Positions 2,713 through 42,074 of a DNA stretch of 51,744 nucleotides are shown here, in pieces. Both the position numbers and the translations under genes were made by a program. Source of the stretch: a virus. The stretch lies in IMG/VR virus record IMGVR_UViG_3300035698_017634, positions 1-51,744 of that record, one strand, 5' to 3'. Numbering within the stretch: position 1 is the stretch's first letter; the number at the start of each line of letters is the position of its first letter. Below the pieces are notes generated by a model. The model ran no database searches, was not told the origin of the DNA, and was given only the letters and a program-made list of their open reading frames with translations.

Positions 2713-3614
2713 TGTATCCTTTTTAGTAGTTTTGAAAACATTAAAAATTCATTTGTTATTGCGCCTCCGGCACTATACTCGTGCCCAGCCCCTGAACATA
2801 ATGTTTGCGCTATTTTTAATAAATCAAGATTACACGTACTGCTTCGTCGTATTGAAATATGGTTTGTGTTTGGATTAACAATAAAAACCACTTCTCCATT
2901 TTTTTCACGCATCAAATAGTCAGCAACACCGTTAATATCTTCCGTAGAAAAAGCACTTAAAACCTTACGCTTTTTTTGCCCAAGCTTAATGTCACCTTCA
3001 TATATTTCGAGATTTTTAATAAGATTTTCATGTCTTCGTTGAAATCTTTTTAATATCAACAATTGTTCATCATTAAATCCGTTAAATCCGGTTTTAAACC
3101 AATTAATAAAGTTATTTATTTTCTCGATTCCGTTATTTGAACTGTTCCAAAAAAGGTTATTTAACTGTTGCGTTTGAGGAATTGATAACTTATAAGAATC
3201 ATAATCATCTGCTAATGCAACCAACATCTTTTGTTCTTTAGTTAATTCTAGATTATACAATCGTCTATAAAGCTGATAACACATCTTTGATGCTGATGTA
3301 TATTCTTTAACACATAACTTAACATTTGGTTTTCTTTTTTGTGGAAGATTTAATACATGGGATTTGTGATGATCTACAACTAAAATATTATTCCCATTTA
3401 AAATATCATAATGTTTTGATATATCTATATCTAATATAAAAATATGGTCATATTGCTTAGTTTGGTTTTTAAAATGGTTTGTATAATCTTTATAAAAAAA
3501 CTCATTCCTTACTGGTTTAAAATCTATCTCTGATTTTGGAAACGCCCAGCGAGTTAACAAATAGCTAACAATGCCGTCTAAATCAAAGTGAAAAAAGCAT
3601 AATAAATCTTTCAT
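2709..3614 (-). CDS. DHH/DHHA1-type phosphoesterase
   Basis: The 301-residue protein shows the DHH phosphoesterase signature: HFDLDG at residues 9-14, an acidic strand ILDIDIS, and the diagnostic VDHHKSH near residue 80. Towards the C-terminus GAGHEYSAGGAI corresponds to the glycine-rich DHHA1 substrate-binding motif. Such enzymes (RecJ, NrnA, GdpP relatives) are Mn-dependent nucleases or phosphodiesterases acting on ssDNA, short oligonucleotides or cyclic dinucleotides. At about 300 residues it is nearer the NrnA/oligoribonuclease size than full RecJ. It follows the helicase C-half with an ATGA overlap and so belongs to the replication operon. The exact substrate is not determined. Confidence 0.82.
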   Translation of the reverse strand: MKDLLCFFHFDLDGIVSYLLTRWAFPKSEIDFKPVRNEFFYKDYTNHFKNQTKQYDHIFILDIDISKHYDILNGNNILVVDHHKSHVLNLPQKRKPNVKLCVKEYTSASKMCYQLYRRLYNLELTKEQKMLVALADDYDSYKLSIPQTQQLNNLFWNSSNNGIEKINNFINWFKTGFNGFNDEQLLILKRFQRRHENLIKNLEIYEGDIKLGQKKRKVLSAFSTEDINGVADYLMREKNGEVVFIVNPNTNHISIRRSSTCNLDLLKIAQTLCSGAGHEYSAGGAITNEFLMFSKLLKRIQ

Positions 3615-4003
3615 ATATTTAATTCTTTCATTACTGAATTCATATTATCATTATTCGATGTTATATCGGTGGTTTCTTCTATACTTAACGTTTTATAGTC
3701 TAGTTTCATACTACAACTTCCAAAAGCAGGGCCAAATCTATTTTTCATAATAGCAAAATGAATAAACCCTAACTCTTTATCTTCAGCATTTTGCCAAATA
3801 CCTATTTGAGCATCAGCCGTAAAGGAAATACCTATACTTTCACTAATTTGATCAGATTCTGGGGCCTTACCTTTCATACCTGAATTATGTGTTAAAACGT
3901 CATTAGCAATAAATAAATTATCTCCATCAACTTCAATGTCAATTGTGTCTTCTATACCACACTCTTCTATGGAAACAATTTCATCATATTTTAAATCATT
4001 CAT
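3611..4003 (-). CDS. 41: gp41/DnaB replicative helicase, C-terminal part with C-intein
   Basis: The first 40 residues are the C-terminal piece of a split intein. They contain the block F/G features of Hint domains (ETIDIE-type beta strand, NLFIAND) and end in VLTHN followed by Ser, the classic Asn cleavage residue and Ser nucleophile. Residues 41-130 are the last part of the RecA-like core of a DnaB-family helicase (SGMKGKAPESDQISES, then the terminal beta strands). Together with the product of 5139-6500 it should trans-splice into a roughly 451-residue hexameric 5'-3' helicase, close to T4 gp41 (475). The intein C-piece closely resembles the known gp41-8 C-intein as I recall it. It overlaps the endonuclease gene by eight bases. 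Confidence 0.88.
   Translation of the reverse strand: MNDLKYDEIVSIEECGIEDTIDIEVDGDNLFIANDVLTHNSGMKGKAPESDQISESIGISFTADAQIGIWQNAEDKELGFIHFAIMKNRFGPAFGSCSMKLDYKTLSIEETTDITSNNDNMNSVMKELNI
3884..4003 (-). other. C-intein coding segment of the split gp41 intein
   Basis: This is the 40-codon segment from the initiator ATG to the Asn of VLTHN. The next codon is the +1 Ser of the C-extein. It lacks any endonuclease domain, as expected for a natural split intein, and is complementary to the 92-residue N-intein at 5142-5417. The endonuclease gene lies between the two. Confidence 0.85.
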
Positions 4004-5078
4004 TTAAAAACTCCATACATTTTTTAATTATATTTTTTTTATCTTTTTTATACTCACTTTCCCAAATAATCAAAACATCAAACCCACGCTTTTTAATAAA
4101 ATCAATTCGTCTATTATCATATTTCCAAATATCTTTAGCTGTTAACTTCTTTGTAAATGGATTAGGGGTGTCGTTTTCTTTAAATTTAGTTGGATTTGCA
4201 TGAAAGACATCCCCATAAAATTCTATACATTTATGAATAGTAGGAATACAAAAGTCAATTAAATACCCACCTTCATATTTACAATTATTTGTTCCCATAA
4301 AACGAATATAACCATTATATATTAAAAACTCTTTATTTAATTTTGCAAAGAAAACTTTATTTTTGCTCATTTTTAATAATTTATATAATTTATTAAATAA
4401 TTCTTGTGAAATTTTTGAATATCCAATTTTTGAAGATTTAGTTAATCTGTTTATATTTTCTTCGTATTTCTCAATGCCTTTTTCTTTTCCGTGTTTTTCA
4501 ATAAACCAATTTAGTGTGTATCTATATAAAAACCACTGGTGTCTTTGATTATATAAGTCAACTCCTTTTTTAAAACCATATTTTTTGATAGCTCGTTCTA
4601 AAGAATGATTTCCTTTATTTTTTTCACAAAACTCATTATATTTTTGTATTCCTAATTCTTTACCATATCTTCTAATAAAATTATCTTTTGTTCCAGCTTT
4701 TTTTGAATTACACTCATTATATTTTTTAACTCCTTCTTCATTACCATATTTTTGAATAAAATTCTCTTTATTTGGTTTTACACCATTTTTCCATTTTTCA
4801 TATTTGTTTTTACCATTAATTTCACCATATAATAGAATACATTTTTCTAGTGTCATTCCTTTTGGATTTTTAATATTTCTATATAATTTTAATTTTTCTT
4901 CTAAGTTAAAAAACTCGTTTTGTACTAGTACAGCTAATACAATAATTTCACATCTTTTTAATTTTTGATGTTTCCAAATATTTTCGGCTTTATTTATAAG
5001 GTCCGGATTTAATACTAAATTATTATTAACCCTTTTCCATTCTTTTTGATTAATTAAATTTTGTTTAACATATTTCAT
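3996..5078 (-). CDS. Vsr-like (EDxHD-type) free-standing homing endonuclease
   Basis: A 360-residue protein placed between the two intein-bearing halves of the helicase gene. The C-terminal 110 residues look like the Vsr/very-short-patch-repair nuclease fold: GGYLIDFCIP, then CIEFYGDVFHANP, then a late LIIWESEY. This fits the E, D, xH, D catalytic pattern of homing endonucleases described with fractured genes. The first 230 residues carry about five repeats of roughly 30 residues centred on KYGxExGxxKYNE, probably DNA-reading modules. I prefer the ATG at 5078, preceded by TAGGAGC, over 5114. The 3' end overlaps the C-half start by eight bases. The coding sequence is visibly more A/T-rich than the neighbouring helicase. 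Confidence 0.85.
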   Translation of the reverse strand: MKYVKQNLINQKEWKRVNNNLVLNPDLINKAENIWKHQKLKRCEIIVLAVLVQNEFFNLEEKLKLYRNIKNPKGMTLEKCILLYGEINGKNKYEKWKNGVKPNKENFIQKYGNEEGVKKYNECNSKKAGTKDNFIRRYGKELGIQKYNEFCEKNKGNHSLERAIKKYGFKKGVDLYNQRHQWFLYRYTLNWFIEKHGKEKGIEKYEENINRLTKSSKIGYSKISQELFNKLYKLLKMSKNKVFFAKLNKEFLIYNGYIRFMGTNNCKYEGGYLIDFCIPTIHKCIEFYGDVFHANPTKFKENDTPNPFTKKLTAKDIWKYDNRRIDFIKKRGFDVLIIWESEYKKDKKNIIKKCMEFLNE

Positions 5079-5104
5079 ATTGCTCCTATTAAAGTACTTT
5101 GAAA

Positions 5105-5112
5105 TACTTATC
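5105..5112 (-). promoter_or_regulatory. Late-promoter-like box before the Vsr-like endonuclease
   Basis: GATAAGTA on the minus strand differs at one position from the GATAAATA box seen before late genes in this window. It lies about 27 bases before the preferred ATG at 5078 and just downstream of a small inverted repeat (AGCAA-N7-TTGCT) that follows the stop codon of the helicase N-half. It is weaker than the box before the HNH endonuclease. Confidence 0.35.
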
Positions 5113-5138
5113 ATATGAGCAACACTGTCTTGCTGTTA

Positions 5139-6500
5139 TTACTGAGAATTATTGTATATTTTTATTATACTTCCTATTTTTAGTCCAGAATTTAGTGAAA
5201 TATCCCCATTATTGGTTGGAAAAATATGATTTGCGGAGCATTTAATTGTTTTTCCGCTTTTTGTTATTATTTTATATACTTTTTGTTTGGTAATGGGATG
5301 AATATTTAATACAGTTACTACTTTATTGTTTCCTAATATTTTTTCTCCAATTTTAATATCTTTAATATTTATTTTTTCCAGTGTTTCCTTATAAACATCA
5401 CAACTCGTTGATAAACAACGACCTATCTGAGTGGCGGTCACTATAGGTATCTTAAAAAGGTATGTTAGAGCTCGAAGTTGCTCAGTTACGGCTTTATTCT
5501 TTTCATACGTGTTTTCACCTGTCTTGCCATTAGGCAATATAAGATTTAAATAGTCAACAACAATAATATCTGGTTTAATTCCTTTAATTATCAATTTTTC
5601 AATATATGTTTTTATCGTATTTACACGTATTGTAGATGGTGGAAATTCTTTAATAATCAGACTTGAAGTACTGTGTGTTCTTTGATAGCCAGTTACAAAA
5701 TCCTTTAAAGCAGTTGTTTGTGTTTTAAGTTCGCTATAAGGAATTTTTGATAATTGAGCATCAATACGAGTGGTGTATATTTCTTCAGCCATTTCTAAAG
5801 AAATAATAACAACTGTCTGATTTTTTGATAAACAATTTGTGGCTAAATTACCCAAAACAATTGATTTGCCTACATTAGTAATTCCACAAAAAACATATAA
5901 GGCTCGACCGTCTGCAAGCAACCCACCGGATAGCTTGTCATCTAACCATTTATATCCAGTTGAGATATGATTTTTTACCTTTTGAAGGTCTACAATATGT
6001 TTATCAATATCTTTAAAGTAATTATGGCCCAAATTATCAATTAATGAAATATTACACGCCTTATTAAAACTCTCAAAGGTATTAAACGTATCTATTTTTC
6101 CATTTGTATACTCATCAATAGTTTTTATAAGACAATTATATACACTTTTTTCTTTTAAAAATCTCTCTGTATTCTCATATAGCTTTGTTTTATTAATATT
6201 ACTATCTATTTGTTTAAAAGATTGACATATTCGTTTCCAAGAGTCTCTTTCTTCCTGTGAATTAAGATGAGTCTTGATTTCCGTTGAGGTTGGTGTTGTA
6301 TTATATTTTCTAAAGAAATCGACGATAATTTTAAACACCAACTTAATATCAGTATTCTTAAAAAAAGACGGATCAATTGTATCTATAATAGTGCCTAAAT
6401 ACACTTGATCCATTATTGCATTATAAATTATGATATTCTCAAAAAAATCCCAGTCAATGTTCTTTAATGTGTTGTCATTCGTTGTCAGCTCCTTCTGCAT
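5139..6500 (-). CDS. 41: gp41/DnaB replicative helicase, N-terminal part with N-intein
   Basis: Residues 1-361 are the N-terminal domain and most of the RecA-like motor of a DnaB-family helicase. Visible are STGYKWLDDKLSGGLLADG, Walker A GITNVGKS, ISLEMAEE, Walker B IIVVDYLNL and the sensor strand VTATQIGR. Residues 362-453 are an N-intein starting with Cys (CLSTSCDVYKE) and containing the block B motif SANHIFP, then a stop. Sequence and length resemble the split inteins gp41-1 and gp41-8. The protein alone lacks the final motor segment and must be joined to the product at 3611-4003. The start codon lies within the 3' end of uvsX (26-base overlap). Confidence 0.9.
   Translation of the reverse strand: MQKELTTNDNTLKNIDWDFFENIIIYNAIMDQVYLGTIIDTIDPSFFKNTDIKLVFKIIVDFFRKYNTTPTSTEIKTHLNSQEERDSWKRICQSFKQIDSNINKTKLYENTERFLKEKSVYNCLIKTIDEYTNGKIDTFNTFESFNKACNISLIDNLGHNYFKDIDKHIVDLQKVKNHISTGYKWLDDKLSGGLLADGRALYVFCGITNVGKSIVLGNLATNCLSKNQTVVIISLEMAEEIYTTRIDAQLSKIPYSELKTQTTALKDFVTGYQRTHSTSSLIIKEFPPSTIRVNTIKTYIEKLIIKGIKPDIIVVDYLNLILPNGKTGENTYEKNKAVTEQLRALTYLFKIPIVTATQIGRCLSTSCDVYKETLEKINIKDIKIGEKILGNNKVVTVLNIHPITKQKVYKIITKSGKTIKCSANHIFPTNNGDISLNSGLKIGSIIKIYNNSQ
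5142..5417 (-). other. N-intein coding segment of the split gp41 intein
   Basis: These 92 codons start at the Cys after TQIGR and end at the stop of the N-half gene. Features: Cys1, a block A-like start, repeated short beta strands (KVYKIITKSGKTIKCSANH), and the block B His in SANH. No endonuclease insertion is present. The insertion point falls in the conserved strand-loop after the sensor motif of the helicase, a functionally critical site. Confidence 0.87.
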
Positions 6501-9134: not shown

Positions 9135-10238
9135 TTAATTCAGCATTTTTAATAGATCTACAGCGAAATTATTATTAGGATTTTCTAACTTCCAGCCAAT
9201 TGCTTCATAAAAACGTGATATGGACTGCACCACTAACTTATCAAACATTTTATTAATATCAACCTGTAAATTAAATTCTTGAGGAAAGACATCAGAAAAG
9301 GCAATACTCTCTATATTATATTTATTAGGTAAAAGGTATAGATATTTAATTTTTTGACCTGATTGTATTTTTTCATACTTATGAGTTAAAGACAATTTAT
9401 CTAATAATAAGTTATATCTTATAGACCCCTTTACGTGAATTGGCGTGTGGTTTCCCATCTTAAAACCTTCACTTAACTTTTTATATTTTTCTAGATTTTT
9501 CATGCCCTTTGGAACCGCTATTTGTTCCGTTGGAATCGCTTTAAATTTGTTAAAGGTTTCTTTAAAAATTTCATTAGTTTTTTGATTATCGTGAGTTCTA
9601 ATAATTGTCTCTATAACTTCTTTAATAATGGGCTTAATAGCCTTTGGCACGTCACTTTTAACAAGATCAACTCCCTTATATGATATCTTATCACATGGAA
9701 TGCCCTTATTATCTATAATATGAAGCGCATAATGCTTCTTTACTAAAAACACACCAGTTGTACATATGGATTCTCGTTTAAACTGAAAACGACAATCTTG
9801 AGAGTTTAGCTCAGTATTTCCCCATTTAACAATTTCTTCATTTAAGTGTTTATCAATTTCATTAATAATTTGAATTACAGCTGGGTTTATTAAATTATCT
9901 ACCATCATAGGAATCTTTAGCTTTTCAAGAATAGATTTCAACGTAATAAACAATGAATCCGTATCGGCAGTGATAATATTGTCTTTTTCAATTTGATATT
10001 TTGTTTTAATATATTCATTAACAATTACTTCGCTTTTTTTAATACACTCTTGCCCAGTTAATGTAATACTGGCAGCACATTCAATATCATAAAGCGGACT
10101 ATATTGATTTGCGAAGGTTCCGTAGACCTTATTCATAAATAGTTTAATTGCTGTCTGTTGATTGTCTAGATGAACAATTTTATTTTCTAGTACTTCAATT
10201 TTATTTTTTAGTTTATTTATTTTTTCTTCGTTTTCCAT
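9135..10238 (-). CDS. 43: B-family DNA polymerase gp43, C-terminal half
   Basis: This 367-residue product holds polymerase motif B in the form KLFMNKVYGTFANQ near residue 35, motif C TADTDSLF near residue 93, and the thumb domain. It lacks any exonuclease domain and motif A, which are on the gene at 11491-13023. The first 30 residues (INKLKNKIEVLENKI) are a heptad-like helix, complementary in style to the helical end of the N-half. The two may re-associate as a coiled coil at the tip of the fingers. ATG 10238 is preferred over the upstream TTG. It overlaps the HNH gene by 26 bases. No intein sequence is visible. Confidence 0.87.
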   Translation of the reverse strand: MENEEKINKLKNKIEVLENKIVHLDNQQTAIKLFMNKVYGTFANQYSPLYDIECAASITLTGQECIKKSEVIVNEYIKTKYQIEKDNIITADTDSLFITLKSILEKLKIPMMVDNLINPAVIQIINEIDKHLNEEIVKWGNTELNSQDCRFQFKRESICTTGVFLVKKHYALHIIDNKGIPCDKISYKGVDLVKSDVPKAIKPIIKEVIETIIRTHDNQKTNEIFKETFNKFKAIPTEQIAVPKGMKNLEKYKKLSEGFKMGNHTPIHVKGSIRYNLLLDKLSLTHKYEKIQSGQKIKYLYLLPNKYNIESIAFSDVFPQEFNLQVDINKMFDKLVVQSISRFYEAIGWKLENPNNNFAVDLLKMLN

Positions 10239-11445
10239 AATATTCAAATCCTAATAATTTAATATTATTAACAAATTCATTTAAAAATTCTTTAGAAAAT
10301 TTTAAATATTCTCTTTGGCTACAATTTAATGATCCTTTTAACATTTGAAGATTTCCATAATGTCCTATTATTTTTGGATCAATTTTATTAACAAATCCAT
10401 ATGCAATTGAAACTATATGATCTAAATGGAATCCGTGGGAATTATTATCTACTCGCTCTCTTTTAACACTATTAAAGTTTATTAAATTTTCATATAATTT
10501 ATATGATAAGTTTGTATACGCCTTTACTTTTTGATAATATTGTGGCCAATTTTTAATGTTAATTTTATTTTTATTTAACTGAATTATACTTTTATAATTA
10601 CCTGTACATTTACTTGAACAAAACGTATGATATCCATTGATGTGCGTATCATATTTACATTTTTTAATTTTACAATACAAACAATATGGAGCCTGATCTA
10701 AATTATTTAAATACAAAAATATAGCTTCAGAAACATTTTTTATTAATGGATATTGTTTTTGTATTTTTTTATAAATTTTAGGAAAAAAATTTTTTAAATA
10801 TTGTTTGCAACGATTTCCTTGTTTTAAAGATATTATTTTTTTAATTGTTTGATATTCGTTTAAAGATTTATTTTTTAATATTTTAAACAATCTATATCCA
10901 AAATAGCCATATTTGTTTGTATGAAAAATTAAAGGAATTTGATTAATTTTAGGTTTGTCATAAATATTATATGTATATCTATAAACCATTTCTCTTTTAT
11001 TAGTCGAATCAGAAAAAGTTTTAATAATATATTGATATTCTTTGGGATAATATTTTTGAATTATATTTAAAATTCGAATGCAAGATTTATTATTATTTCC
11101 TGTGGTGTTATTTTTTTGAAATATATAAATTGATTTAATTAACTGTTTAAGATTAAATTTGGGATGTTTGTTGATATAATTTTTAAGAAAAATAGTAAAT
11201 TTATTATTTTGCATTCTTCCTTTTTTATATATTTTTCCGTTCAGAATCAATGGTTCATATGATATTTCTTTAAAATTATATGATTTATTATTGATAATTA
11301 AAGTTTTATTTTTCAATTCTTTCCAAATTTCTGGCCATTTTCTTTTAAGATATTCAAAATTATTTCTAGTATAATTTGCATTAATAGCTTTTCTAGGGGT
11401 TGATATATTATTTTTACACCAAACGATTAATTCTTCATTATTCAC
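10213..11445 (-). CDS. HNH free-standing homing endonuclease between polymerase halves
   Basis: A 410-residue basic protein. Around residue 255 YCLYCKIKKCKYD and YHTFCSSKCTGN form a zinc-finger-like Cys cluster. Near residue 350 GFHLDHIVSIAYGF followed by GHYGNLQMLKGSLN gives the HNH nuclease motif (His, Asp-His, Asn, Asn). The N-terminal 240 residues are rich in Lys, Ile and Asn and presumably bind the target site. The start is a GTG at 11445 with GGAG eight bases before it. A GATAAATA late-promoter box lies 30 bases upstream. The sequence is strongly A/T-biased compared with the polymerase. It probably cleaves uninterrupted gene 43 in competing phages and thus spreads with the break. Confidence 0.85.
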   Translation of the reverse strand: MNNEELIVWCKNNISTPRKAINANYTRNNFEYLKRKWPEIWKELKNKTLIINNKSYNFKEISYEPLILNGKIYKKGRMQNNKFTIFLKNYINKHPKFNLKQLIKSIYIFQKNNTTGNNNKSCIRILNIIQKYYPKEYQYIIKTFSDSTNKREMVYRYTYNIYDKPKINQIPLIFHTNKYGYFGYRLFKILKNKSLNEYQTIKKIISLKQGNRCKQYLKNFFPKIYKKIQKQYPLIKNVSEAIFLYLNNLDQAPYCLYCKIKKCKYDTHINGYHTFCSSKCTGNYKSIIQLNKNKINIKNWPQYYQKVKAYTNLSYKLYENLINFNSVKRERVDNNSHGFHLDHIVSIAYGFVNKIDPKIIGHYGNLQMLKGSLNCSQREYLKFSKEFLNEFVNNIKLLGFEYYGKRRKNK

Positions 11446-11474
11446 ATTAAATCTCCATAAACCTTGTTTTTAAA

Positions 11475-11482
11475 TATTTATC
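11475..11482 (-). promoter_or_regulatory. Late-promoter box GATAAATA before the HNH endonuclease
   Basis: The minus-strand sequence GATAAATATTTAAAAA is identical over 16 bases to the boxes before the genes at 42126 and 45738. It falls between the polymerase N-half stop and the endonuclease GTG, leaving a leader of about 20 bases with GGAG. A perfect 6-bp hairpin (AAATCT-N5-AGATTT, 11486-11502) overlaps the polymerase stop codon just upstream. Confidence 0.6.
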
Positions 11483-11490
11483 TTAAAATC

Positions 11491-13023
11491 TCAACAAGAT
11501 TTACGGAATGATGCTTTTAAACTGTTTAATTCCTTTATAATTTTATTCTTTTTTTCTTCTAATTCGTTTATTTCTTTCTGAATATTTTTTCTTTTATCAT
11601 ATAATGGAGAAATCAGTTCAGAACAAATACCTTTAAATGACTGAATAAACATAATATTTGCTTTTGAAACTGCTATTTTTTTGTCAACTATAAATTTAGT
11701 AAACTCTTCGTTAGTAAACTCTTTTTGCTGTTTATTAATGAACTCCACTTTTACTTTACCGTTTTCATTAGACAGTATTTTACCAGCTTTCGTTTCTGGT
11801 GAAATATTTAAAGTAATCATTGTATTTGGGTATAGACTGTTTAAGTCAAATGTGACTATATTCTCATACAACCCTCTTTTTGGTTGTTTAACAAAACCGC
11901 CTGTAAATGATTGCACGTCTTTATTAACAAACGTTGGTATAATTCTATTTTTTAACAATGCTTTACTTGCTAAAGCCCCACCTACCATCGCAATTGTCCC
12001 CATAGCATCTTCAAACGGGGTTAAACCAAGATATGCTAACTCTCTCATTGTAGACATATAATGTAGCTTTTTTTCTAGATCAATTATAAGCTGAACATCT
12101 TGTATATTATAATCAACAAACGTAGTCCAATCCTTTTCCGCAAGTTCGGTTAAACTTATAGCATTATAAGTCAATTTACCGGCCCCTAATTCTTCTTCCC
12201 CAATATAGTTTAAACTATATGAGGATTTTAAATTCTGAGAGAATGTTTTATATATAAACATATAATCAAAGAGCGATACCCCCTTAATTAACCATTTTGA
12301 GTTTTCATCTCCAAAGCGGTTAATTACTTTTTCTCTAAAATTCAACTCTCCAACCGGAGATAGTTTTTTAGGGAAATTTTCATCCTTAAAAACTATTTTC
12401 ATTCGATTTATGATATATGGTATATCAAATACTTCTGAATTCCATCCAACAACTATATCGGGAAAGTGTTTTCTCCAGTATTTCACAAAATATAAGAGCA
12501 ATTCTTCCTCACTCTTACATTTAATATATATCACATTATCTTGTTTGGGTTGGTAGTCCTTTTCTAATCCAAACACAATAAACTTATTTTCTAAGGAATC
12601 AAAAATGTTAATTACATTAATTGTATCCTTAGCTTTAGTTATATCAGGAAAGGTGTGAGAAAAAGTTTCAATATCCAGGTAAAAAATTCTTAAAGGATGC
12701 TTATTGAAGTCGTCATTTTCGTGGGTATTGTAGAAATTATCTATTAAAAACTGTTGTTCGGGTTTTATGTTATAAAAAATTCGCGTAATTCCACACGTTT
12801 TAATGTATTCACTTCTTTTCCATGCATTGTCGAATTCCATTTTTTTCAACTTTGTGTTAAAAATAGAAATTCCATCTTTACCATCAGGGTGTTCAATATA
12901 AAAATAAGGCCGGAAAGGTTTAGTTACAATAATCCGTTCACCCTTTTCATTCCAGGAATATAAAGTGATTTTACTTGAAAACTTATTGTAATGAATGTTG
13001 CGATAATTAAAAAAGTTTTCCAT
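11491..13023 (-). CDS. 43: B-family DNA polymerase gp43, N-terminal half
   Basis: The 510-residue product carries the 3'-5' exonuclease (Exo I FYLDIETFSH; Exo II VGWNSEVFDIPYI; Exo III YNIQDVQLIID) and the first part of the polymerase domain with motif A FDLNSLYPNTMITLN. It ends in a charged helix (IQKEINELEEKKNKIIKELNSL) and the tail SFRKSC, upstream of motif B. The break therefore falls in the fingers. The rest is on 9135-10238. Split gene 43 is known in some T4-like Aeromonas phages. A TTAACT-N16-TATAAT promoter ends six bases before the ATG, so the mRNA is probably leaderless. Confidence 0.9.
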   Translation of the reverse strand: MENFFNYRNIHYNKFSSKITLYSWNEKGERIIVTKPFRPYFYIEHPDGKDGISIFNTKLKKMEFDNAWKRSEYIKTCGITRIFYNIKPEQQFLIDNFYNTHENDDFNKHPLRIFYLDIETFSHTFPDITKAKDTINVINIFDSLENKFIVFGLEKDYQPKQDNVIYIKCKSEEELLLYFVKYWRKHFPDIVVGWNSEVFDIPYIINRMKIVFKDENFPKKLSPVGELNFREKVINRFGDENSKWLIKGVSLFDYMFIYKTFSQNLKSSYSLNYIGEEELGAGKLTYNAISLTELAEKDWTTFVDYNIQDVQLIIDLEKKLHYMSTMRELAYLGLTPFEDAMGTIAMVGGALASKALLKNRIIPTFVNKDVQSFTGGFVKQPKRGLYENIVTFDLNSLYPNTMITLNISPETKAGKILSNENGKVKVEFINKQQKEFTNEEFTKFIVDKKIAVSKANIMFIQSFKGICSELISPLYDKRKNIQKEINELEEKKNKIIKELNSLKASFRKSC

Positions 13024-35169: not shown

Positions 35170-35217
35170 CAAAAGCTTTGATTATTTACTATAATCTTGA
35201 TATTGTTTGTTATTATT

Positions 35218-35709
35218 ATGAAAATTGCATCTATATCTATTGGTTTTGTGGACGTTCCTGGACAAATATCACTTAACATCTATTGTCAAGGGTGTAAAAA
35301 AAGATGTAAAGGGTGTCACAATCCAGAGTTACAACCGTTTGAGGGTGGAGAAATGGTTGATTTAGCTCTATTTAAAAAAATATTAAAGAAATATGAGCTA
35401 CCAACATGGGTAACGTTTTTAGGTGGAGATGCGGTATATCAACCTAAAGAATTGATTAAATTTAGTAAATTTTTAAAAGAGTTAGAATATAATGTTTGTT
35501 TATACACAGGTAAGACATTTGAAGAGTTAATGATTGAAGATAATCATGTTGAATTAATACAGTATATTGATTTGGTAGTTGATGGTGAATATAACGAAGA
35601 ATTAGGAACTGTTGATAATAGTGTAACCAATCAAAGATGTTTTTTAAAAAGGGAGGATGTTTGGCATCAACTTCCTTTTAATGAACTAAAAAAGGAATTG
35701 AAAAAATGA
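35218..35709 (+). CDS. nrdG: NrdG anaerobic ribonucleotide reductase activating enzyme
   Basis: A 163-residue radical SAM protein. QGCKKRCKGCHNPELQPF gives the CxxxCxxC iron-sulphur motif of NrdG-type activases. TFLGGDAVYQPKEL is the following GGD/E motif. It uses SAM and a 4Fe-4S cluster to put a glycyl radical on NrdD (38871-42074). The ATG at 35218 is preferred to an upstream TTG. It ends overlapping the next gene by ATGA. Phage NrdG proteins are near 155 residues, so it is full-length. Confidence 0.87.
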   Translation: MKIASISIGFVDVPGQISLNIYCQGCKKRCKGCHNPELQPFEGGEMVDLALFKKILKKYELPTWVTFLGGDAVYQPKELIKFSKFLKELEYNVCLYTGKTFEELMIEDNHVELIQYIDLVVDGEYNEELGTVDNSVTNQRCFLKREDVWHQLPFNELKKELKK

Positions 35710-38870: not shown

Positions 38871-41800
38871 ATGCTTGTCCGCCATTCGTTCGACTCTCGT
38901 TTTATCTCTAAAATGCAAGAAATTGAAAATAAATATGGAATAGATATGATAGAATATGAAGGAATAGGGCCTTCATCTTTGGATATTAATAGATTTGCAA
39001 AGGACTTTTTTTCTAAGAAACATATTTCAGAGCTTTCGTCTGACCCAAATGCGAATGTAGATGATCAGACGGTTCTTTCAATGGAATACGAGTTCGGAAA
39101 GTCTATTCAAAAATTAAATGCTTATTATTTACTTTGGAAAAAAATTACTGAGGATAGTAATTTAGGGATTAAACGAGCTAATAAAGTACTTGAGCTTTGT
39201 GTTAATGGAACATTAAAAATTCACGACTTGCAATTTTTCTTAAAACCGTATTCCTATTATAAAGAAACGCCAGTTATTATTAGGATTAATGGTGAAATTA
39301 AAAAATCAGTAACGCTTAAAATGTTATTTAATTATTATGAAGAATTTGCAAAAATACTTTCAGATAGAGAAGAAATTGATACGACTAATATTTATAAAGA
39401 AATTTCTTATTATAAGTCTAAACCAATAGAAACATTAAAAAAAGGAAATTATTTAAAATTTAAAAAAACAGATATTATATCACAAAATATTAAACAGATG
39501 CATAATGTTGAAGTATTAGATGGTAACGGAAAATGGACAAAATTACAAAGAATTATTAGACACAAAAATAATAATGATATGGTTTTTTATCAAACTAATA
39601 ATGGTGATTTTGCATTAGTAACAGAAAATCATCCGGTTATTCTTAATAATAAAACAGAAGTTAAAGCAAAAAATTTAAAAATTGGGGATCAAATAAAAGA
39701 ATCTAAAACAGATTTTACAGAATTTAATGAATATATTAACATTCCAACAGATTTAGCATATTTAATAGGATTTATTATTGGTGATGGAAATGTTGAAAGA
39801 CATTTTTTTTATAAGGATAGTAAAAATTTTACTGGAGAAGAATTATCAATAGTTTTAGCAAGTATAAAAAACACAATTACTGTATATCAAAATAATATAC
39901 AAACAACAAAAATATATAAAGTAATAAAAAACCTTTTTCCTAATTTACATATAGTTAATTATAAAGAAAAACCAAGTTCTAAAATTACTTTTAGTTCTTT
40001 AAGACTAAAAATGATATTATCTAAATATATGGATTTAGATTATACAAATAGTTCTTTTTCAAAAACATTACCATCTAATATGTTAAATTGGAAAAAAGAA
40101 AGTAAAGTAGCACTTATTTCTGGATTAATTGATAGTGAAGGTTCTATATCTGATCATTTGGTTACAATTAGGATGAAAGCTTATGCTGTAATTAATCAAT
40201 TAAGTGATTTATTAAATTCTATTGGAATTCAAAACAATAAAAGAATTTGTGGAGAAAAACAAACAGATTTATTAATGGGTATTAGTTTTAAACCTATTGA
40301 ATTATTGTCAAAACATTCTACTAAATTATATAATTTTGATTTTAAGAAAAAATATAATGATAATATGGATAGTCAAGTAAGAAACAATAAAATATCAAAA
40401 ATTTTTAAAATTGCTAAAGAAAATTTTCCTAAATTTTTATCAAAGATTTCTCTTATTGATTATGTTTATGACATTACAACTGAATCAGGAACATTTTATG
40501 CAAATGGAATGACACAACATAATTGTTATGCCTTTAGTCTTGCTCCAATGGTTGCAAAAGGGTTGCCGTTTATATCTAAAGTAAGGATTGGACCGCCTAA
40601 ACATTTTTCTTCTTTCATAAATTTAGTTATTCAATACATTGCTTTCGCATCCAACCAAATTGCAGGAGCTTGTGGCTTACCGGATCTTTTTATATATATG
40701 GACTGGTACGCTCGTAAAGAGTTTGGAGAGAATTATTTAGATAATGAGGCTAATAGAACAATAGTTAAGCAAGAAATACAGTCAATGATATATTCGTTTA
40801 ATTATCCTTTTAGATCTTCTCAAAGTAGTTTTACTAATGTTAATATATATGATATTCATTTTTTAAAGGACATGTTTGAAAAAACTACATTATACCCCGA
40901 CAACTCGACTCCAAATATTGAAAGTATTAAAAAGCTTCAGGACTTTTATATGCGGTGGTTTGTTGAGGAATCCAAAACACAAACATTAACTTTTCCTGTT
41001 AATACTGCCACGTTTGTCAAGGATGAAGATGGAAATATTAAAGACCAAGAGTTTCTTGACGTGGTTAGTGAGCTAAACTGTATTAATGGCTGTTTTAATA
41101 TTTACACAGGTGATTTAGCCAACCTTTCGTCTTGTTGTAGATTACGCTCTAACATTACAAAGGTTAAGGAATATGCAAATAGTTTTGGCGTTGGTGGAAT
41201 TTCTATAGGAAGTCATAGGGTTGTGACGTTAAATCTTCCACGTATGGCCTTTCAAGCAGAAACCGATGATACTTATTTTAAACAATTAGAATATAATATT
41301 CGAGTTGCTCAAGATGTGCTAGATGTTCATCGTTTAGTTATTCGTGAAAATATTGAAAGTGGAAAACTACCCCTTTATACACATGGGTTTATGTCACTTA
41401 ATAAACAATTTTCTACTGTAGGGTTTATTGGTTTAAATGAGGCTTGTGAAATTCGTGGTCATGAAATTTGTGACTTGAGTGGCGAAGAGTTTGCAAAGAA
41501 AACTTTAAATACAATAAATGATTTAAATGATGAAAGAACAAAAGAAGACGGCCAAATTCGTAATATGGAACAGGTTCCAGGTGAAAGTTGTGCTGCTGTC
41601 TTTGCAAAGAAAGATAAACTTCTTTTTACTGGTCATAAATATAAGTTATATTCTAATCAATATATTCCTTTGTGGAAAAGTATTAATGTTGAAGAAAGAA
41701 TTAGACTTCAAGGGATGTTTGACTCGATGTGCTCTGGTGGGGCTATATTGCATGTAAATGTTGATAGTTCTTTAGAAAAAGAACAAATGAGGTCTCTTAT

Positions 41801-42074
41801 TGAGTTTGCTGCAAAGAAAGGTGTTATATATTTTGGAATTAATATGAACTTGGCAAGGTGTGATAGTTGCGGAAAGTTGTTTATTGGTAAATTTGATAAA
41901 TCCCCTTGTCATAATGCGACAGTTTCAAATTATATGAGAATTGTTGGGTTTCTTGTAAAGGTGTCTAATTGGATTCCAGAGAGACAAGAAGAATATTCTT
42001 TGCGGCAATTTTATTCAAAAGACGACTTTAGTACAGCGAAAAGTGATCTTGATGTAGTTAAAATTGTTAAATAA
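38871..42074 (+). CDS. nrdD: NrdD anaerobic ribonucleotide reductase with an intein
   Basis: The 1067-residue precursor comprises an extein (about 643 residues after splicing) and an intein (residues 128-551). After the intein comes CYAFSLAPMVAKGLPFISK, then FINLVIQYIAFASNQIAG, LSSCCRLRSNI and near the C-terminus MRIVGFLVKVSN. The RIVGFL Gly at about residue 1026 is the glycyl radical site, and RCDSCGKLFIGKFDKSPC is the zinc site, in which only three Cys are visible instead of four. It reduces ribonucleotides to deoxynucleotides without oxygen, activated by NrdG (35218-35709). AAAGGA precedes the ATG. Confidence 0.92.
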   Translation: MLVRHSFDSRFISKMQEIENKYGIDMIEYEGIGPSSLDINRFAKDFFSKKHISELSSDPNANVDDQTVLSMEYEFGKSIQKLNAYYLLWKKITEDSNLGIKRANKVLELCVNGTLKIHDLQFFLKPYSYYKETPVIIRINGEIKKSVTLKMLFNYYEEFAKILSDREEIDTTNIYKEISYYKSKPIETLKKGNYLKFKKTDIISQNIKQMHNVEVLDGNGKWTKLQRIIRHKNNNDMVFYQTNNGDFALVTENHPVILNNKTEVKAKNLKIGDQIKESKTDFTEFNEYINIPTDLAYLIGFIIGDGNVERHFFYKDSKNFTGEELSIVLASIKNTITVYQNNIQTTKIYKVIKNLFPNLHIVNYKEKPSSKITFSSLRLKMILSKYMDLDYTNSSFSKTLPSNMLNWKKESKVALISGLIDSEGSISDHLVTIRMKAYAVINQLSDLLNSIGIQNNKRICGEKQTDLLMGISFKPIELLSKHSTKLYNFDFKKKYNDNMDSQVRNNKISKIFKIAKENFPKFLSKISLIDYVYDITTESGTFYANGMTQHNCYAFSLAPMVAKGLPFISKVRIGPPKHFSSFINLVIQYIAFASNQIAGACGLPDLFIYMDWYARKEFGENYLDNEANRTIVKQEIQSMIYSFNYPFRSSQSSFTNVNIYDIHFLKDMFEKTTLYPDNSTPNIESIKKLQDFYMRWFVEESKTQTLTFPVNTATFVKDEDGNIKDQEFLDVVSELNCINGCFNIYTGDLANLSSCCRLRSNITKVKEYANSFGVGGISIGSHRVVTLNLPRMAFQAETDDTYFKQLEYNIRVAQDVLDVHRLVIRENIESGKLPLYTHGFMSLNKQFSTVGFIGLNEACEIRGHEICDLSGEEFAKKTLNTINDLNDERTKEDGQIRNMEQVPGESCAAVFAKKDKLLFTGHKYKLYSNQYIPLWKSINVEERIRLQGMFDSMCSGGAILHVNVDSSLEKEQMRSLIEFAAKKGVIYFGINMNLARCDSCGKLFIGKFDKSPCHNATVSNYMRIVGFLVKVSNWIPERQEEYSLRQFYSKDDFSTAKSDLDVVKIVK
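39252..40523 (+). mobile_element. LAGLIDADG intein in NrdD
   Basis: 424 codons. It starts with Ser (SYYKETPVIIRINGEI, block A), has block B in LVTENHPVIL, two LAGLIDADG endonuclease motifs (AYLIGFIIGDG and ALISGLIDSEG), then block F VYDITTESGTFYANG and ends in MTQHN, followed by the +1 Cys. The intein is visibly more A/T-rich than its exteins, indicating recent acquisition. It is inserted exactly before the Cys that begins CYAFSLAP of NrdD. Confidence 0.9.

Follow-up and report, generated by a model that had tools for sequence, protein, structure and literature searches.

The window analysed here, a complete viral record from IMG/VR, comprises 51,744 bases. A single uninterrupted open reading frame on its plus strand (38871-42074) encodes a 1067-residue precursor of NrdD, the class III ribonucleotide reductase (RNR), and an intein occupies residues 128-551 of that precursor (Table 1). 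With the intein taken out, 127 and 516 residues of an anaerobic ribonucleotide reductase remain; the precursor matches Pfam NRDD with an E-value of 2e-87, and the catalytic motifs of the exteins are conserved in alignment. Assignment to class III draws on the RIVGFL motif with its invariant G1026, the predicted glycyl-radical residue of this family, and on a NrdG-like gene within the window, about 3 kb upstream of nrdD. The predicted fold agrees: the precursor model matches NrdD structure 4u3e (Z 35.6) and the model of an intein-free ortholog, L012 (Z 43.5). The subclass NrdDh is defined by a Tyr plus reductive Cys and by an SCCR motif (PMC4493059); the protein of the window has both, in that the Cys equivalent to T4 C79 is preceded by Tyr and the SCCR motif is present in the alignment.

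Table 1. Features of the nrdD locus in the window, with the evidence for each (numbering of Cys552, S754-R757 and Gly1026 follows the precursor, that of the block residues the intein).
Feature	Position	Strand	Evidence
NrdG-like activase (radical SAM) for NrdD	35197..35709	+	TIGR02491 E 1.4e-24, under curated cut-off; Pfam Fer4_12
NrdD N-extein (127 aa), ending in Tyr127 (codon 39249-39251), equivalent to T. maritima Tyr124	38871..39251	+	alignment with orthologs and T. maritima NrdD
Intein, 424 aa, Ser1 to Asn424 (precursor aa 128-551)	39252..40523	+	empty-site orthologs, Pfam, structure
Block A, SYYKETPVIIRING, Ser1 nucleophile	39252..39293	+	S1 invariant in alignment of same-site inteins
Block B, TxxH (TENH; T124, H127)	39621..39632	+	invariant in alignment A3
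LAGLIDADG homing endonuclease domain	39735..40346	+	Pfam LAGLIDADG_3, I-DmoI structural match, invariant motif residues
LAGLIDADG motif 1, LAYLIGFIIGDG	39753-39788	+	
LAGLIDADG motif 2, ALISGLIDSEG	40110-40142	+	
Blocks F and G, YVYDITTESGTFYANGMTQHN (D407, H423, N424)	40461..40523	+	invariant in alignment A3
NrdD C-extein (516 aa), followed by a stop codon whose last base is 42074	40524..42071	+	Pfam NRDD, NCBIfam NF006127
Cys+1 (Cys552) = catalytic cysteine, T4 Cys79 / T. maritima Cys125	40524..40526	+	profile alignments; PMC4493059
SCCR motif (S754-R757), another region of the active site; carries inteins in other phages	41130..41141	+	alignment; motif named in PMC4493059
Gly1026 in RIVGFL, predicted glycyl-radical residue	41946..41948	+	invariant column; aligned with RIVGYL of T. 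maritima NrdD

The initial annotation placed the intein immediately before the Cys of CYAFSLAP, and orthologs, motifs and predicted structure bear this out to the base. The codon that follows the intein is TGT. Among intein-free relatives (a slash marks the insertion point), L012 reads RPY/CYAFSL, L014 and L015 read KPY/CYAFSL, and L002 reads KPY/CFSFSL; with L003 included, RPY or KPY runs directly into CYAFSL, CFSFSL or CFAFSL. At the DNA level, the empty site of the L012-type nrdD is CTTCGGCCTTAC/TGTTATGCC. Since these orthologs join the two sides with zero residues gained or lost, both boundaries are fixed by comparison rather than by pattern alone, and removal of the in-frame insertion leaves an intact, known host protein, as expected of a class 1 intein. 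Residue 1 is also confirmed structurally, because the precursor model aligns from residue 128 with known inteins (residues 128-550 with PI-PfuI 1-454, and 128-549 with PI-SceI 1-453). The model has a pLDDT below 50 at residues 125-128 and 546-552, so that the junction, like parts of the intein, is of low confidence in it.

The anatomy is that of a canonical (class 1) intein, and self-splicing is predicted from it. S1, T124/H127, D407, H423/N424 and Cys+1 are all in place, the C-terminal end reads VYDITTESGTFYANGMTQHN, and the predicted structure contains a Hint fold (model residues 126-550 match TliVMA, PI-PfuI and PI-SceI with Z 15.8-18.3). Two features are less typical: block A has KET where GDT is usual, and the Pfam Intein_splicing match (E 4e-7 to 3e-8) falls slightly under the curated cut-off. 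The intein contains 1 Cys, C333, which lies in the endonuclease domain. That domain has 2 LAGLIDADG motifs and appears intact; it matches Pfam LAGLIDADG_3 above the cut-off, and residues 289-492 of the precursor model superpose on I-DmoI (Z 16.3, rmsd 3.4 over 173 residues). The G-D-G residues and D294 are invariant among same-site viral inteins (alignment A3). Cleavage of the empty allele is predicted.

The initial annotation suggested that the +1 Cys corresponds to the conserved active-site cysteine near residue 79 of T4 NrdD, and the alignments uphold this. In a single-sequence phmmer comparison, the +1 Cys falls on C125 of T. maritima NrdD and the last N-extein residue on Y124. With a profile built from 35 intein-free phage NrdDs, the +1 Cys aligns with C125 of 4coi (overall E 6e-208) and, in T4 NrdD, with the first of two adjacent cysteines. 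Residues 79 and 80 encoded by T4 nrdD exon 1 (NC_000866) are both Cys, and when this exon is added to the alignment, C79 falls in the +1 column, where 35/35 rows have Cys. Across sampled empty-site sequences, Tyr at -1 and Cys at +1 occur in 86/86 rows, near-duplicates among them. For structural comparison, an AF2 model was made of L012 in place of the spliced protein; L012 is 67% identical to the NrdD of the window (alignment A5), and its model (pLDDT 90.7) matches T. maritima NrdD with Z 38.6-43.5 and T4 NrdD with Z 29.4-30.1.

T4 Cys79 is equivalent to E. coli Cys175 and to Cys125 of T. maritima NrdD, and is conserved in all known RNRs (PMC4493059). Its neighbor, Tyr124, is an active-site residue completely conserved in NrdDh, with a hydroxyl roughly equidistant from O2' and O3'; the equivalent T4 residue is Asn78, mutation of which abolishes activity (PMC4493059). 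Since the -1 Tyr is Tyr124 and the +1 Cys is Cys125, the intein splits 2 active-site residues. The role of the +1 Cys lies in the reductive half-reaction; the thiyl radical resides on a different cysteine. An alternative, in which the +1 Cys is non-catalytic and the catalytic cysteines are confined to the LSSCCRL region, retains almost no probability: LSSCCRL is likewise invariant and has been discussed as a possible source of NrdDh active-site cysteines (PMC4493059), but it is a separate motif, and the +1 Cys falls on C125 or C79 in the alignments above and is invariant throughout the sampled sequences. Alignment to the T4 and T. maritima enzymes rules this placement out.

The insertion recurs. 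Searches with NrdD profiles and a splice-junction profile revealed 11 further contigs with an intein ending HN/Cys at the same bond: 7 viral (L017, L021, L058, L093, L094, L097, and L098) and 4 from bacterial metagenome-assembled genomes, or MAGs (L106, titled Lachnospiraceae, L107, L108, and L109). Because 11 other contigs share HN/Cys at this bond, the position is not a matter of chance. Ser1, HN and Cys+1 are present in all 11 inteins that were extracted, that of the window counted; L108, whose N-terminal side is masked and which is nearly identical to L109, was left out. The group is broad, with C-extein identity to the window as low as 23%, and includes a mini-intein of 179 aa in L107. 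NrdR-like sequence, read by eye, lies upstream in L107 and L109 and suggests that these 2 contigs are cellular chromosomes. The insertion is sporadic, in that 3 of the best 80 viral NrdD loci carry it. A single-sequence search with the intein itself found zero relatives in the viral contigs or the phage collection, and a second, broader junction profile yielded no further NrdD cases.

Exchange between these genes is hinted at by uneven identities. The C-exteins of L093 and L094 are 69% identical and their inteins 39%; L094 and the window share 50% identity in the intein and 42% in the C-extein. The intein of the window has a GC content of 21% against 31-33% in the exteins (GC3 8% against 23-27%). 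The identity pattern among L093, L094 and the window resembles exchange by homing and is only suggestive of it, since the AU test on the inteins gives no statistical rejection of the extein topology, and hence of vertical descent (p 0.24-0.25), the intein trees themselves being unresolved. Tree discordance as proof of horizontal transfer was dropped on these grounds.

Other positions in NrdD are occupied as well. Inteins of the form Cys1...HN/Cys interrupt SCC/R in Prevotella phage Lak-A1, MT835492, phage SRB7757 and L053; intein-like insertions lie at NQ/SPFTN in L079 and L084; and the NrdD genes of L098 (3031-6405) and L106 (3157-6846) each have an intein at the C79 site and another in the SCCR motif. 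Inteins at C79, SCCR and other sites make the active site of class III RNRs a recurrent target. The L106 frame is additionally broken between RRSCAYTQ and QSAFVNV. In L101 (1873-5499), an NrdD of another subfamily has an intein-like insertion ending HLHN/CGFANTT; it precedes a further Cys, one within the conserved region downstream of SACCRL. The nrdD of L003, which has no C79 intein, is broken downstream between GENYQEND and GSQSAF (5020-5612) by a segment with stop codons inside, which had no Rfam match at the gathering score. L002 contains, between nrdG and an intein-free nrdD, an open reading frame (3033-3878) that by eye resembles a free-standing GIY-YIG endonuclease.

Our preferred reading, which we hold with high confidence, is that a mobile intein of canonical type, equipped with a LAGLIDADG endonuclease, interrupts a phage class III RNR and persists by homing at a target that cannot be mutated. 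By the canonical Ser1/Cys+1/Asn pathway (PMC5874633), proposed here from the conserved residues, Ser1 would take up the N-extein in an N-to-O acyl shift and then pass it to the thiol of Cys+1, the residue later used in catalysis. Cyclisation of Asn424 would release the intein, and an S-to-N shift would remake the Tyr-Cys bond of the active site, giving a 643-residue NrdD that the NrdG of the phage could activate. Before splicing, 424 residues lie between Tyr127 and Cys552, so the precursor should have no activity. The endonuclease should cleave intein-free nrdD within this stretch, which protein function protects, and thereby spread the intein by homing. The intein would persist because any change of the catalytic Cys kills the enzyme, and exact deletion is the only route of removal. 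The initial annotation had gone further, stating that any escape mutation would destroy the enzyme; this holds for substitution of the Cys, which cannot rescue NrdD, but not for exact loss of the intein, which can, as the empty-site relatives demonstrate. One thiol, at a position that all known RNRs share, would serve first in splicing transesterification and later in the reduction of ribonucleotides.

The initial annotation also raised the idea of redox-sensitive splicing. As a full explanation, the intein would be an oxygen gate: oxidising conditions would stall splicing, and active NrdD would form only when the cell is anaerobic. The host enzyme belongs to a class that oxygen inactivates (PMC2795772), the +1 nucleophile is a thiol, and a redox trap has been described in another oxygen-labile enzyme, MoaA of Pyrococcus abyssi, where Cys1 of the intein forms a disulfide with an N-extein Cys (PMC10663303). 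The anatomy is nonetheless unfavourable: position 1 is Ser in all readable same-site inteins, no Cys occurs among the 17 residues that end the N-extein of the window, and C333 is located in the endonuclease domain. Both disulfide partners of the P. abyssi trap are thus absent, which rules out a trap of this known type; what remains is that Cys+1 itself could be oxidised, as in any intein with a +1 Cys, and we consider a redox gate very unlikely overall. A dead element, that is, an unspliced precursor and an NrdD that is a pseudo-enzyme, is more improbable still. Some intein-bearing phage RNR genes appear to be degenerating, such as Campylobacter phage nrdA (PMC3653736), and both the KET of block A and the subthreshold Intein_splicing score could be read in this way. 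Against decay stand 1067 codons free of frameshifts and stops, the full set of known splicing residues alongside the conserved extein motifs, and the occurrence of a closely similar block A, QET, in L017 and L094. A more ambitious proposal is that inteins have independently targeted separate catalytic positions of class III RNRs and that splicing is linked to how the active site is folded or to its redox state. If true, precursor splicing would be tied to active-site state and the intein would be a maturation checkpoint, beyond a parasite; we regard this as improbable. A group I intron was rejected as an explanation, the frame being open throughout and the Rfam matches in the window consisting of 2 tRNAs only. 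An ordinary homing intein, a selfish element at a host site closed to mutation, is the most likely explanation.

Putative inteins in phage class III RNRs have been published (PMC3653736, PMC12363816), and the element of the window resembles those reported in nrdD of Clostridium phages c-st and D-1873, Lactococcus phage 949 and the Jug phages. Its site is fixed at the bond before the T4 Cys79 equivalent, whereas the passages available from these papers do not give theirs. The SCC/R inteins likewise end in HN/C before an invariant Cys of an active-site region, but they occupy a different site and begin with Cys1 where the window has Ser1. PI-PfuI, PI-SceI and TliVMA (1dq3, 1vde, 7qsu) share the Hint fold, the inserted LAGLIDADG endonuclease and a coinciding residue 1, but reside in other host proteins or at other sites, with 16-22% sequence identity. 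Phage nrdD inteins are therefore already known, and what is added is a well-defined and instructive insertion site. No description of an insertion at the C79 site was found in the part of the literature that was searched, which is weak evidence of absence. In this site, nature provides a clear case of a selfish element using a target that the host cannot mutate away. Homing and splicing are directly testable because phages and bacterial MAGs repeatedly carry the insertion at one bond and natural empty sites are at hand; the family supplies Ser1/Cys+1 inteins for such work, the mini-intein of L107 among them.

Two other genes of the window, both on the minus strand, are split. A DnaB/gp41-like helicase gene (3611-6500) is fractured by a second, independent intein, in what looks like the published split-intein "fractured gene" arrangement: one frame (5139-6500) terminates in an intein N-half, ATQIGR/CLSTSCDVYKE, another (3611-4003) begins with an intein C-half, FIANDVLTHN/SGMKGKAPES, and between them a 372-aa frame (3996-5114), for which no protein family matched, possibly encodes a homing endonuclease of the free-standing kind. 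A B-family DNA polymerase (9135-13023) is split in 2, with the exonuclease and the start of the polymerase domain at 11491-13023, the remaining polymerase domain at 9135-10247, and an open reading frame without assigned function at 10213-11445 between the parts.
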